Positions 8,274 to 50,166 of a stretch of 64,000 nt of DNA are shown piece after piece. This DNA comes from Lacinutrix sp. 5H-3-7-4 (GTDB lineage: Bacteria; Bacteroidota; Bacteroidia; Flavobacteriales; Flavobacteriaceae). The position numbers and the translations under genes are program-made. The notes under the pieces are model-generated. The model saw only the letters and a program-made list of their open reading frames with translations, was not told the DNA's origin and ran no database searches. Each line of letters starts with the position of its first letter. Within the stretch, counting starts at the first letter, position 1. Where the stretch lies: NCBI RefSeq assembly GCF_000211855.2, contig NC_015638.1, positions 1,364,001 to 1,428,000 of the forward strand, written 5' to 3'.

Positions 8274-9113
8274 GTGGCATTACAAGATATAGAAACATAT
8301 ACATTTAAAGATATTTTTTCATTAAGTGTGGTCCAGTTTGATAAAGCTTGTGTTGTAAATAAACCAGAACAAGTAGATGTTTATAGTATTTATTGGATAA
8401 AAAAAGGAAAAGGACTTTATAATATAGATTTTAAAAGTTTTGAGTTTAGTGAAAATGTACTGTTTTTTCTGTCTCCAGGACAAGTGTTTTCCGTAGAAAA
8501 CGAAAGTATAAAAGAAGCCTATAAAATTACCTTTATAAAAGATTTTTATTGCATACAAACACATGATAAAGAAGTATCATGTAATGGTGTACTTTTTAAC
8601 AATGTATATAAGGTGCCTTTTATTAAACCATGTAAAAGCGATACGCAAAAACTAAGTTTTATACTCGATAGTTTAATAGAAGAATTTAAAAACGTTAACA
8701 CTGCTCAACATGATATGCTGCAAAGCTATTTAAAGCAATTCATTATCCATTCAGTTCGCATACAAAGTGAAAACTATCCAGTAGATAAAAATATAGAAAC
8801 CAGGCTTTTTAAAGATTTTAGTACAATCTTAGAACAAAATTATAAAACAATACACTCTGTAACAGAATATGCAAAACGCCTAGGAATATCACCAAAATCA
8901 CTCACCAAAAATTTTCAAAAAATTGGCGCTCAAACACCAAGCGATATTATAAAAAACCGAATAATAATAGAAGCAAAACGTCAATTAATATACACTAAGC
9001 AATCTGTAAAAGAAATAGCTTATAGTTTAGGTTTTAACGACTCTGCCTACTTTAGCAGGTACTTTAGTAAAGCCACATCAAAATCACCATTACAATTTAG
9101 AAAAGACTATTAA
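8274..9113 (+). CDS. AraC family transcriptional regulator
   Basis: 279 residues. The C-terminal 95 or so residues are an AraC/XylS double helix-turn-helix, with SVTEYAKRLGISPKSLTKNFQKI and VKEIAYSLGFNDSAYFSRYFSK in two blocks. The N-terminal 170 residues are a cupin-like sensor domain. The start is a GTG codon seven bases after brnQ. This is a cytosolic DNA-binding activator. Its targets may be brnQ itself or the AhpD-like and cupredoxin-like genes downstream; the latter is a guess based on position. A palindromic repeat element separates it from those genes. Confidence 0.9.
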   Translation: MALQDIETYTFKDIFSLSVVQFDKACVVNKPEQVDVYSIYWIKKGKGLYNIDFKSFEFSENVLFFLSPGQVFSVENESIKEAYKITFIKDFYCIQTHDKEVSCNGVLFNNVYKVPFIKPCKSDTQKLSFILDSLIEEFKNVNTAQHDMLQSYLKQFIIHSVRIQSENYPVDKNIETRLFKDFSTILEQNYKTIHSVTEYAKRLGISPKSLTKNFQKIGAQTPSDIIKNRIIIEAKRQLIYTKQSVKEIAYSLGFNDSAYFSRYFSKATSKSPLQFRKDY

Positions 9114-9121
9114 TTTATTAT

Positions 9122-9227
9122 GGCGTGTCCAAAATGAGCAGAAGCATCATTTAGGTCAGGCTGTACGTTATATCTTTTTTTGCCATATAGGCAAGCAAAA
9201 AAAGGATGCCACTGCCATCCTTCACGC
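9122..9227 (+). repeat. Dispersed intergenic element, copy A (structured)
   Basis: Copy A of a two-copy element; copy B is at 38955-39046. The ends pair: GCGTG at 9123-9127 with CACGC at 9223-9227. A conserved GGTCAGGCT core is at 9154-9162. A long T/A hairpin closes on TTGCC/GGCAA (9180-9194), and a second hairpin GGATG/CATCC (9204-9220) precedes the 3' end. Together with the small open reading frame that follows, it fills the 405-base gap between the AraC gene and the AhpD-like gene. I recall similar sequences scattered between flavobacterial genes, but I cannot check this here. Confidence 0.65.
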
Positions 9228-38186: not shown

Positions 38187-38948
38187 ATGAAAATCATTTC
38201 TTACAACGTAAACGGTATACGTGCAGCATTAAAAAAAGGATTTATAGAATGGCTAGAAGGAGCCAATCCAGATGTTTTATGTTTGCAAGAAATTAAAGCT
38301 ATGCAAGACCAAGTAGATGTAGAAGCTTTCGAGGCACTTGGTTATAAATATCATTATTGGTTTAGTGCTAATAAAAAAGGGTATAGTGGTGTGGCAATTT
38401 TAAGTAAAATAAAACCAAACCATGTAGAATTTGGAACCGGAATAGAAACAATGGATTTCGAAGGTCGTAATATACGTGCAGATTTTGATGGAGTATCAGT
38501 CATGAGCATGTATTTACCATCAGGAACAAATATGGACCGTTTAGAATTCAAGCTAAATTACATGGACGAAATTCAAGACTATGTAAACAAACTTAGAGAA
38601 ACCATACCAAACCTAGTAATATGTGGCGATTATAACATATGTCACGAAGCCATAGATATACATAACCCAAAAATGAAAAACGTTTCAGGTTTCCTGCCAG
38701 TAGAACGCGAATGGATAGGCAACTTTATAGACAGTGGTTTGGTAGATTCTTACCGCTATCTAAATCCAGAAAAAGTAGAATACAGTTGGTGGAGTTACCG
38801 TGCCAATGCCAGAGCAAACAATAAAGGCTGGCGATTAGACTATGCCATGGTAACACAACCATTAAAGCAAAAAATAAAAAGAGCAGTAATATTAACACAA
38901 GCCGTGCACAGCGATCACTGTCCAATATTATTAGAGCTAGACATGTAA
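38187..38948 (+). CDS. xth: Exodeoxyribonuclease III
   Basis: 253 residues, the usual length. It is an AP endonuclease and 3'-to-5' exonuclease in base excision repair. Motifs in order: SYNVNGIRAA (metal-binding Asn), CLQEIKA (Glu), MYLPSG, ICGDYNICH (Asp and Asn), YSWWSYR, and the terminal SDHCPILLE (Asp-His pair). It starts a plus-strand stretch, and the dispersed element copy B begins six bases after its stop. Confidence 0.95.
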   Translation: MKIISYNVNGIRAALKKGFIEWLEGANPDVLCLQEIKAMQDQVDVEAFEALGYKYHYWFSANKKGYSGVAILSKIKPNHVEFGTGIETMDFEGRNIRADFDGVSVMSMYLPSGTNMDRLEFKLNYMDEIQDYVNKLRETIPNLVICGDYNICHEAIDIHNPKMKNVSGFLPVEREWIGNFIDSGLVDSYRYLNPEKVEYSWWSYRANARANNKGWRLDYAMVTQPLKQKIKRAVILTQAVHSDHCPILLELDM

Positions 38949-38954
38949 TTTTAG

Positions 38955-39046
38955 GGCGTTACCAAGCCAAGCAAAGCTATGTCTTGGTCGGGCTCTCGCA
39001 AGTCGCTCTCTGCGAGGAGCTCCAACAATTGCTCCATCCCTAACGC
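38955..39046 (+). repeat. Dispersed intergenic element, copy B (structured)
   Basis: Copy B of the element also found at 9122-9227. The ends pair: GCGTTA (38956-38961) with TAACGC (39041-39046). The core GGTCGGGCT (38986-38994) lies 30 bases from the left end, against 31 in copy A. A 3' hairpin GGAGC/GCTCC (39016-39035) directly precedes the conserved ATCC. The GT in copy A's terminal stem (G-C pair) is a T-A pair here. It lies between xth and the aldo/keto reductase gene. Confidence 0.7.
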
Positions 39047-48521: not shown

Positions 48522-48587
48522 CAATATAAACCACTAGAAAAAACATGCAATAACTAACTAAACTTGCAATAATTACCTAGTAAAAAC

Positions 48588-48619
48588 AAAAAAGCCGCAA
48601 CTTACGTTGCGGCTTTTTT
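48588..48619. terminator. Bidirectional terminator between the adhesin module and rng
   Basis: AAAAAAGCCGCAA (48588-48600) and TTGCGGCTTTTTT (48607-48619) form a perfect 13-bp stem with a 6-base loop. It ends both convergent transcripts. Confidence 0.92.
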
Positions 48620-48621
48620 AA

Positions 48622-50166
48622 TTATTTAATTTCGTTACCATTTTTATCAAAAAAATGATATTCTAAATATGTGTAAGCATCTCTAGGTTGAATTTTGACC
48701 CATTTTTTATGTTCAAAAAACCATTTTGAACGAATAGATGGAAAACCTTTTGTTAGAAAGGCTGCTATAAAAGGGTGTGTGTTTAAAGTCACCTTTTTAA
48801 AGTCTTTTTTAAATAGTTGTTCAAGTTGTTGAGTAATTTTTTGTACCAATACAATTGGTGCTTCAACCTCTTCGCCACCATTACCATTAGGGTTTTCCTC
48901 TCTGGTTTTGATGTTCATTTCTGGCCTTACTCTTTGTCTTGTAATTTGAATCAATCCAAACTTACTTGGCGGTAATATTTTGTGTTTGGCTCTATCATCT
49001 TTCATTTCATCACGAAGATGATTGTAGAGTTTTTTTCTATTTTCAGCTTTATTTAAGTCTATAAAATCTACTACTATTATACCTCCCATATCACGGAGTC
49101 TTAGTTGTCTAGCGACTTCTGTTGCAGAGATTAAATTTACTTCTAAGGCTGTGTCTTCTTGTGAGTTAGATTTATTAGATCTATTTCCACTGTTTACATC
49201 AATAACATGTAGTGCTTCAGTATGTTCTATTACTAAATAGGCACCTTTTGCCATTGAAACCGTTTTGCCAAAAGCGGTTTTTATTTGTCTTTCTACTCCA
49301 AATTTTTCAAAAATTGGAACGTTAGACTGATGTAGTTTGACTATTGATTCTTTTTTTGGTGCAATTTCTTGCACGTAATCTTTAATTTGAATGTAAAGCG
49401 CTTCGTCATCCACTACTATTCCTGTAAAAGTATCATTAAAAATATCTCTTAATATAGAAGAGGCTTTATTTAATTCTCCTAATACTTTAGTAGGGTGATG
49501 TGCTTTATTCAATTTTTTACACATTGCGGTCCAACGACCAAGCAAATTTTGTAAATCTTTGTCTAATTCGGCTACTTTTTTGCCTTCGGCTACCGTGCGT
49601 ACAATAACTCCAAAACCTTTTGGAGTTATGCTTTTAACCAAACGTTTAAGTCTGTCTTTTTCTGCTCTGTCTTCTATTTTTTGAGAAATAGAAATCCGAT
49701 CACTAAAAGGAACTAAAACAATATATCTACCGGCAATAGAAAGCTCAGAGCTTATTCTAGGACCTTTGGTAGATATTGGTTCTTTTACAATTTGTACTAG
49801 CATCGATTGATTTGATTTTAAGACGTTGTTTATTTTACCGTCTTTATCAATATCTTTTTCAAATGGGAATTCTTTTAAAGAAAAGTCATTTAATTTACCT
49901 GTGCTTACACTTTTTGTGAACTTTAAAAGAGAAGATATTTTTGGGCCTAAATCATGATAATGCAAAAAAGCATCTTTTTCATAACCTACATTTACAAATG
50001 CAGCATTAAGTCCAGGAACAGCTTTACGTATTTTGGCTATAAACACATCGCCAACAGCAAAGTTGTTACTATCTTCATCCTTATGTAATTCAATTAGTTT
50101 TCCATCTTTTAATAAGGCAAAATCAACACCGTCTGAATTAGATCTAATAATCAATTCTTTGTTCAT
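48622..50166 (-). CDS. rng: Ribonuclease E/G family endoribonuclease
   Basis: 514 residues, RNase G-sized. It cleaves single-stranded RNA in rRNA maturation and mRNA decay. An S1 domain lies at about 38-130. The catalytic acids are in HVIDVNSGNRSN and GGIIVVDFIDLNKAENRK. The zinc-link motif CPxCxG of enterobacterial RNase E/G is absent: residues about 425-445 (REENPNGNGGEE) have no Cys, so dimerisation must differ. It is the last gene after hup and the 30-residue basic protein, with a structured 240-base gap before it. Confidence 0.93.
   Translation of the reverse strand: MNKELIIRSNSDGVDFALLKDGKLIELHKDEDSNNFAVGDVFIAKIRKAVPGLNAAFVNVGYEKDAFLHYHDLGPKISSLLKFTKSVSTGKLNDFSLKEFPFEKDIDKDGKINNVLKSNQSMLVQIVKEPISTKGPRISSELSIAGRYIVLVPFSDRISISQKIEDRAEKDRLKRLVKSITPKGFGVIVRTVAEGKKVAELDKDLQNLLGRWTAMCKKLNKAHHPTKVLGELNKASSILRDIFNDTFTGIVVDDEALYIQIKDYVQEIAPKKESIVKLHQSNVPIFEKFGVERQIKTAFGKTVSMAKGAYLVIEHTEALHVIDVNSGNRSNKSNSQEDTALEVNLISATEVARQLRLRDMGGIIVVDFIDLNKAENRKKLYNHLRDEMKDDRAKHKILPPSKFGLIQITRQRVRPEMNIKTREENPNGNGGEEVEAPIVLVQKITQQLEQLFKKDFKKVTLNTHPFIAAFLTKGFPSIRSKWFFEHKKWVKIQPRDAYTYLEYHFFDKNGNEIK

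Follow-up and report, generated by a model that had tools for sequence, protein, structure and literature searches.

The stretch of DNA analysed here, called the window throughout, is the 64 kb from 1,364,001 to 1,428,000 of NC_015638.1 in Lacinutrix sp. 5H-3-7-4 (own genome, G000), and sits within one 3.30 Mb contig. It carries two copies, A and B, of a structured element, each lying directly behind an open reading frame (ORF) in sense orientation, an AraC-type regulator and a protein of the exonuclease/endonuclease/phosphatase family respectively (Table 1). The initial annotation had described both as copies of one plan with paired ends, and a pattern scan and a covariance model (R1) located them exactly there. 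A regular expression of the common plan matched only A and B on the + strand of the 64-kb window and gave zero matches on its - strand, and R1 found A and B as sole window matches at E<=1, both being among its training rows. The terminal pairing is present in the sequence as GCGTG/CACGC in A and GCGTTA/TAACGC in B, and the compensatory change claimed for the terminal stem is real, A having G-C where B has T-A. Neither a tRNA nor a protein had been thought to explain the copies; there are zero tRNAs in the window and zero proteins within the copies.

Table 1. Positions of copies A and B, their parts and the adjoining ORFs, numbered within the window.
Feature	Position	Strand	Basis
AraC-type regulator ORF; stop codon end to copy A start, 8 nt	8274..9113	+	Pfam HTH_18/HTH_AraC
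Copy A, complete element, A-type P2	9122..9227	+	R1 88.0 bits, E 2e-17 (R1 training row); Flavo-1 overlap
Copy A P0 left arm GCGTG	9123..9127	+	sequence, covariation
Copy A P1 hairpin (CC...GG)	9129..9155	+	sequence
Rfam Flavo-1 RF01705 match spanning copy A XYZ and P2	9150..9232	-	62.4 bits, gathering 42, E 3e-11
Copy A XYZ left triplet AGG	9158..9160	+	sequence; XYZ complementary in 233/241 elements
Copy A P2 arm, TATATC...GGATGCC type	9161..9218	+	sequence
Copy A XYZ right triplet CCT	9219..9221	+	sequence
Copy A P0 right arm CACGC	9223..9227	+	sequence
Exonuclease/endonuclease/phosphatase-family ORF; stop codon end to copy B start, 6 nt	38187..38948	+	Pfam Exo_endo_phos
Copy B, complete element, B-type P2 (GCAAGTCGCT...GAGCTCCAACAA)	38955..39046	+	R1 48.1 bits, E 4e-8 (R1 training row); below Flavo-1 gathering score
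Copy B P0 left arm GCGTTA	38956..38961	+	sequence
Copy B P1 hairpin	38962..38987	+	sequence
Copy B XYZ left triplet GGG	38990..38992	+	sequence
Copy B P2 arm	38993..39037	+	sequence
Copy B XYZ right triplet CCC	39038..39040	+	sequence
Copy B P0 right arm TAACGC	39041..39046	+	sequence

Architecture of the element

The full element is a three-way junction of a terminal stem (P0), a hairpin (P1) and an inner stem (XYZ) that bears an exchangeable arm (P2), and complete elements are 73-161 nt long. The consensus order is (TT[T/A]G)GGCGTTACC, P1 hairpin, GGTC, XYZ, CT, P2, AT, Z'Y'X', TAACGC. P0 is GCGTTA/TAACGC, and its variants in the own genome (GCGAG/CTCGC, GCATT/AATGC and GCGTAA/TTACGC) are each compensated. 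In some copies P1 is a hairpin with a 4-nt loop (CC TAAA GG), in others it is long. In most elements XYZ/Z'Y'X' is AGG/CCT, GGG/CCC, GCG/CGC or GTG/CAC, and its complementarity in the great majority of elements (Table 1) compares with about 87 expected by a hand calculation of random triplet pairing, the test being one of X and Y since the pattern fixes Z. The P2 arm is of type A in copy A (TATATC...GGATGCC) and of type B in copy B (GCARGTCGCT...GAGCTYCAACAA); by eye there are at least five types in all, at least three of them beyond A and B and seen in other bacteria and viral contigs.

A C.T mismatch adjoining XYZ (columns 42/118 of alignment A2) is conserved and is swapped to T.C in L017, L019 and L023; judged from these sequences, the mismatch seems to covary too. 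A canonical Flavo-1 copy at 934087-934160 of the own genome (L001:1501-1574) has different ends (TTTCCTGCT...ATCAGGGCTAAAA) and a CTG/CAG triplet that pairs, and represents a second end type without P0 and P1. The P2 loop holds extra segments in four orthologues of copy A (L099, L101, L102 and L104) and in L071, where the tip of P2 contains another stretch, TTGCGAGCACGAAGGAAGTGGCAATCT, which we take to be repeat-like.

Copy number and distribution

The proposal that the element is dispersed was borne out by 46 R1 matches at E<=0.1 in the own genome (one of them the inner half only) and three weaker matches reached through copy B, about 49 in total. Among 133 distinct copies three overlap an ORF of at least 90 aa; the family consists of many dispersed intergenic copies, as REP-like repeats do. 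Further copies were found by covariance-model search, at E<=0.001 with R1 in 27 of 40 genomes (own included), among them all 13 genomes of the genus, with 4 to 61 in each; the counts per genome are lower bounds, 102 candidates having been scored per genome. A scaffold model (R2), for which, together with alignment A5, 59 of 142 pattern loci were taken (69 matches, with four weak ones of E above 0.01 retained), matched at E<=1e-4 in at least 56 of 395 genomes of the phylum and at least 26 of 171 genera, 11 candidates being scored in each genome.

Named genomes, searched with a strict pattern, gave at least 120 stretches, and carriers among the matches listed include Algibacter, Tamlana, Aquimarina, Polaribacter, Winogradskyella, F. 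psychrophilum, a Chitinophagaceae MAG and a Bacteroides fragilis plasmid. The scaffold pattern also occurs in 22 viral contigs, some of which may be host DNA; one of these matches (L382), within an 890-aa ORF, seems fortuitous. Searches by blastn of copy B against plasmids and of copy A against phages gave zero matches. Five viral contigs (L377, L381, L384, L386 and L397) have similar neighbour ORFs and hold the scaffold with a P2 of its own (AGTTG...GCCAAC) in a non-coding gap. On the B. fragilis plasmid Q1F2-p2 the copy (L296:6811-6886) starts directly behind an ORF that may encode a serine recombinase, to judge by its first residues.

Within the own genome the copies are unevenly spread. 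The last 0.7 Mb (G000:C1:2597290-3296168) has no reported copy (150 candidates scored) and the other 2.6 Mb has the approximately 49 matches; a direct scan of 400 kb sampled from that last part gave zero copies. At about 2.83 Mb the GC skew turns from mostly positive to mostly negative, and a replication origin or terminus may be near.

Turnover at fixed sites

One relative is 97% identical to the own genome over two searched stretches. Many element sites are common to the genomes of the genus. Copy A is orthologous in eight further genomes (G011, G008, G006, G001, G012, G005, G007 and G002), each with the rare P0 GCGTG/CACGC, and G010 has an apparent remnant at this place. The orthologues differ in P1, in the P2 tip and in single P2 pairs, with compensation (G-C to A-T and T-A to C-G between G008 and G007). 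Copy B was found in the own genome and G011 only, the G011 copy having one XYZ mismatch (GCG/CTC); at its site G010 has the two flanking genes side by side with no element between them, and in the other ten genomes the first gene is followed by a further gene or other sequence in the 330 nt viewed.

At several shared sites the content of the element has changed. The L031 site has GCG with a long P1 in G000 and G011, GGG in G008 and AGG in G006, and the L166 site is B-type in G000 and A-type in five others. The L054/L207 site is B-type in G000 and A-type in the sister genome G011, the P2 core being switched on both sides while P1, XYZ and tip are unchanged, with flank identities of 98.1% (740 nt) and 97.5% (800 nt). 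At fixed sites an arm is exchanged whole, with its two sides changing together. Two loci 2.4 kb apart in the own genome (L035 and L158, at 396189 and 398658) have identical P1 and XYZ, with P2 of A-type and B-type respectively, and by sequence this pair may be another sign of arm exchange. The L030 site, inspected by eye, holds three different elements in G000, G007 and G006, a degenerate one in G001, G002 and G003, a remnant in G008 and no element in G004, G005, G009, G010 and G012, and the region is missing from G011. The varied contents of such shared sites imply that elements arise, are replaced and decay while the sites stay fixed.

The clearest case of gain is the L218 site, where G012 has an element and G005 one whose right end is damaged, and the flanks are contiguous or nearly so in G008, G010, G000, G004 and G009; the flanks had no match at E<=1e-20 in the other six of the 13 genomes. 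Occupied and empty alleles of one site thus exist side by side (two sister genomes against five others), as for a mobile element. The simplest history would be one insertion of about 110 bp, measured by eye, that included some bases outside P0. The insertion site is AT-rich, and 13 bp overlap in the G008 alignment without a sure target-site duplication. The mobility of the family rests on this one clean site, since the two other empty-site tests, at an inverted pair in G000 (1836853/1837053) and at the L030 site, were not clean. With so many sites common to the genus, present mobility may be low.

Compensatory change and scarcity of wobble pairs

Alignment A2 and R1 were both built from 23 copies of the own genome. 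A2 omits five of 28 loci (L001, L006, L020, L022 and L023) with ends outside the end pattern, of which A3 regained the last four through other loci of the same places and L001 as an inner half. The 143 aligned rows gave 133 distinct copies, duplicates of one place being mostly dropped (71 and 70 loci fetched), and alignments A3, A4 and A5 are model-fitted. Standard pairs make up 92.9% of the 481 pair cells in the 23 own-genome copies, against a shuffle mean of 79.8%, and 54 cells are changed on both sides against two changed on one side; the shuffle mean is 15.2, and none of 500 shuffles reached 54. When one arm was slid by 1-3 columns, pairing fell to 34-45%. The pattern extends to model-fitted alignments of 69 distinct copies from ten related genomes (132 both-side against one one-side cell, 98.3% of 1442 paired) and of 69 scaffold-only rows that come chiefly from viral contigs and other genera (43 against three, 98.3% of 878 paired), with slid controls pairing at 29-48% in both. 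In the other-genera set 13 of 500 shuffles reached the observed number of double-changed pairs. The number of further pair types was not above that of shuffles, 277 of 500 reaching the observed value in the other-genera set and 482 of 500 in the ten-genome set.

When an RNA helix drifts from G-C to A-U or back, G.U is the expected intermediate. Among 3678 stem cells of 284 distinct elements, 3582 are Watson-Crick, 12 are G.T, 35 A.C and 49 other (XYZ could not be located in about six of the 284, and three P2 pairs were counted for 110 elements). G.T thus makes up 0.3% of the stem cells of the + strand, and A.C, which reads as G.U on the - strand, 1.0%; in 12 tRNAs found in these loci, 17 of 254 cells are G.T (6.7%), a small control and one uninformative for A.C, since ARAGORN takes pairing stems only. 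The excess of A.C over G.T on the + strand, equal to an excess of G.U on the - strand, has a nominal p of 0.001 with relatedness ignored. At position X, 69 of 133 copies have G-C and 63 A-T, with zero intermediates. This absence of intermediates, with the near-zero G.T, makes the paired changes look simultaneous, as would be expected from DNA copying, replacement or hairpin-templated correction, or from unusually strict selection. The scarcity of G.T pairs suggests constraint or copying at the DNA level, and the paired changes may partly reflect such copying or replacement rather than stepwise selection on RNA. The initial annotation had taken the compensatory change as a hint that selection for a folded nucleic acid, and not just the copying of sequence, was at work; the changes themselves stand, and the contrast is too sharp in the light of the insertion, the concerted arm replacement and the near-zero G.T.

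Folding calculations weakly favour the - strand as the folded strand. The mean pair probability on the - versus the + strand is 0.83 versus 0.63 for P0 and 0.51 versus 0.18 for XYZ with DNA parameters, and 0.80 versus 0.50 and 0.30 versus 0.18 with RNA parameters. P1 breaks this trend, with 0.49 versus 0.60 (RNA) and 0.51 versus 0.49 (DNA). When single elements were folded, competing local hairpins were preferred on the + strand, and XYZ reached a mean pair probability of at most 0.51 on either strand.

Flavo-1 as one arm of the element

Copy A and 22 other places in the own genome pass the gathering score of the Rfam family Flavo-1 (RF01705), and there are 24 matches at E<=0.001, 23 of them above the cut-off, on both strands; copy B has no match at the gathering score. 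The likeness is in the XYZ-P2 arm and the internal loops. The Flavo-1 model differs: it spans 76 nt of the opposite strand and includes neither P1 nor the P0 left arm. XYZ is its outermost helix, and P1 and the P0 left arm lie beyond it yet covary. The element as a 76-nt single Flavo-1 hairpin was rejected on this ground. When 13 loci were picked to span the P2 types, ten had no Flavo-1 match and the three that matched were A-type. Flavo-1, which the initial annotation had not foreseen, is the XYZ-P2 arm of one variant, and the complete element is larger.

In the 2010 catalogue that lists Flavo-1 the relevant table columns are said to denote RNA, cis-regulatory and riboswitch. In its main text Flavo-1 is a single table row that reads y, n, n, Bacteroidetes (Weinberg et al. 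2010, PMC2864571). Among the papers listed by literature searches on repetitive or structured elements of Flavobacterium and Bacteroidetes, no title or abstract was recognised as describing the whole element, and a search with short sequence strings gave nothing relevant among the matches listed. A catalogue entry of 2010 with unknown function would in this way become one arm of a larger, mobile and modular element that occurs across a phylum and in viral contigs.

Placement behind stop codons and the case for RNA

Genes were taken as mechanical ORFs of at least 90 aa. For 93 of 129 distinct copies with a left neighbour that gene is in sense, with its stop codon a median of 9 nt away, and only six of 118 copies with both neighbours lie between divergent genes. 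With shared sites counted once, the element starts within 15 nt of the upstream sense stop at 33 of 50 sites, and its right end lies equally near a facing stop at four of 30. Loci of named genomes, mostly from other genera, behave likewise at the left end (34 of 67 against 13.9 expected from uniform placement in the gap) and not at the other end (six of 47 against 8.5); this set comprises the 106 of 120 elements with both neighbours, and a few Lacinutrix loci remain in it after L287 and L289 were dropped as same-genus. Proximity of the left end but not the right end to stop codons indicates that the left end is tied to the stop codon in one orientation. Promoter function was rejected, since the left flank has the consensus TT(T/A)G and no conserved box further upstream. 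In E. coli, as one paper reports, ribosomes are stalled by REPs that lie within 15 nt of a stop codon (PMC12306157), and the sense-orientation placement seen here fits an RNA role at least as well as it fits mobile DNA.

Such a role would make the element a structured RNA in the first place, either a small RNA, as Rfam's listing of Flavo-1 has it, or a 3'-UTR element that acts in cis by stalling the ribosome at termination, by tuning translation or by making the mRNA end more stable, with dispersal secondary. This is possible, and we judge it somewhat unlikely. Strong covariation, the sense placement and the keeping of sites at orthologous places across the genus, as for copy A, all speak for RNA, and both the A.C excess and the better pairing of P0 and XYZ point to the - strand, which is the Flavo-1 strand. 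But G.U is near zero on either strand when compared with the tRNAs, and the strands conflict, stop placement favouring a + strand RNA and fold and wobble the - strand. In the published F. psychrophilum transcriptome Flavo-1 matches are reported to lie in either sense, many of them outside transcribed regions (PMC9723704), and elements decay and get lost, as at the L030 site.

A bidirectional transcription terminator module would likewise sit behind genes and seldom between divergent ones, and the - strand of copy A has AAGGATG...CATCCTTTTTTT. That hairpin needs CCT or CCC as right triplet, and elements with GCG/CGC or GTG/CAC cannot form it; by eye it is seen in no P2 type but A, and no run of U follows the complete structure in the consensus flanks of either strand. 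We regard a terminator as very improbable.

Search for the mover

The Y1/RAYT family (REP-associated tyrosine transposases, PF01797) was considered as the mover. It has zero matches in the own genome and is present in 13 of 40 genomes; of the 12 genomes with at least 20 R1 matches, eight (own included) are without PF01797, two of these eight being incomplete (G003 and G015, 89% and 80% complete), and neither carrier of the L218 element (G005, G012) has a match. Conversely, R1, which is tuned to types A and B, had no match with filters off at E<=1 in 20 Y1/RAYT loci, representing 22 of 42 listed Y1 matches; one of 14 G018 matches was tested, a script found no clear RAYT frame in L441, L446, L450 and L452, and several of the Y1 matches are fragmentary. 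The RAYT genes of L442-L444, with YIHNNP or YIHQNP, adjoin a visibly different palindrome. Y1/RAYT as mover was rejected on the absence of the gene from the own genome and of the element from the 20 loci. A 2018 survey describes atypical secondary structures that flank RAYT genes of subclass 2.6 in Bacteroidetes and have copies elsewhere in the genome (PMC6006769), and the placement is like that of REP; given those absences, that the copies are REP elements of a RAYT is an extremely unlikely explanation.

The element and REP/BIME repeats are both dispersed, imperfectly palindromic, intergenic and partly within 15 nt of a stop codon (for REP, PMC12306157). They differ in that the element is a three-way junction, has no RAYT partner that we found and is without the GTAG or CGTC tetranucleotide foot, which by inspection is absent from the ends of the 23 aligned copies (GGCGTTACC and TAACGC or near variants). 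It is also longer than REPs, for which PMC3733652 gives 20-40 bp. The element is not a member of the REP family, the defining features of which fail, and works like a REP-like repeat. ERIC, BOX, Correia and similar repeats are also structured, modular and non-coding, are about 100 bp long and have no known enzyme. Integron attC sites have the cores RYYYAAC ... GTTRRRY and an integrase; an attC site was rejected by inspection, as the ends of the element are in the opposite order, with GTTA on the left and TAAC on the right.

A proposed mobile DNA repeat acting as 3'-UTR structure

On balance we lean towards the reading of A and B as copies of a non-autonomous, mobile, REP-like structured DNA repeat of Bacteroidota that would act as a 3'-UTR structure. 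This reading starts from what was observed, namely the fold and its covariation, the many copies, a single derived insertion with empty sites in other genomes, concerted arm change and stop-codon placement. The scaffold, a three-way junction of P0, the P1 hairpin and the XYZ stem bearing an exchangeable P2 arm, may be read as single-stranded DNA by a trans-acting enzyme other than a RAYT/Y1 transposase, and this putative enzyme would copy or exchange the element. Insertions would survive best directly behind a stop codon, where the transcribed structure could meet the terminating ribosome or guard the mRNA 3' end, as E. coli REP elements do, and the repeat may have been co-opted or tolerated there. 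Against a DNA repeat stand the L218 insertion itself, with its flanking bases and its lack of a sure target-site duplication, the dependence of mobility on that single clean site, the sites shared across the genus, the sense placement, and the folding of single elements, in which local + strand hairpins compete and XYZ pairs poorly.

A bolder version of this DNA-repeat reading would see a new mobile element of Bacteroidota and phages, an ssDNA three-way junction with cassette-like arms, in which a putative enzyme reads shape, inserts by stop codons and rewrites arms at fixed sites; Flavo-1 would then be a fragment of this DNA element and not an RNA gene. We offer it as speculation and think it improbable. 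Near-perfect Watson-Crick covariation with scarce wobble is in either form a warning for the discovery of structured RNAs, as DNA elements can covary, and both the question of which enzyme moves the element and the tuning of expression of dozens of genes by a stop-proximal repeat become testable.

Elsewhere in the window, at 48547-48685, several sub-threshold Rfam matches stack on a hairpin, GCCGCAA...TTGCGGC, that has U-runs on both strands and may be a bidirectional terminator.
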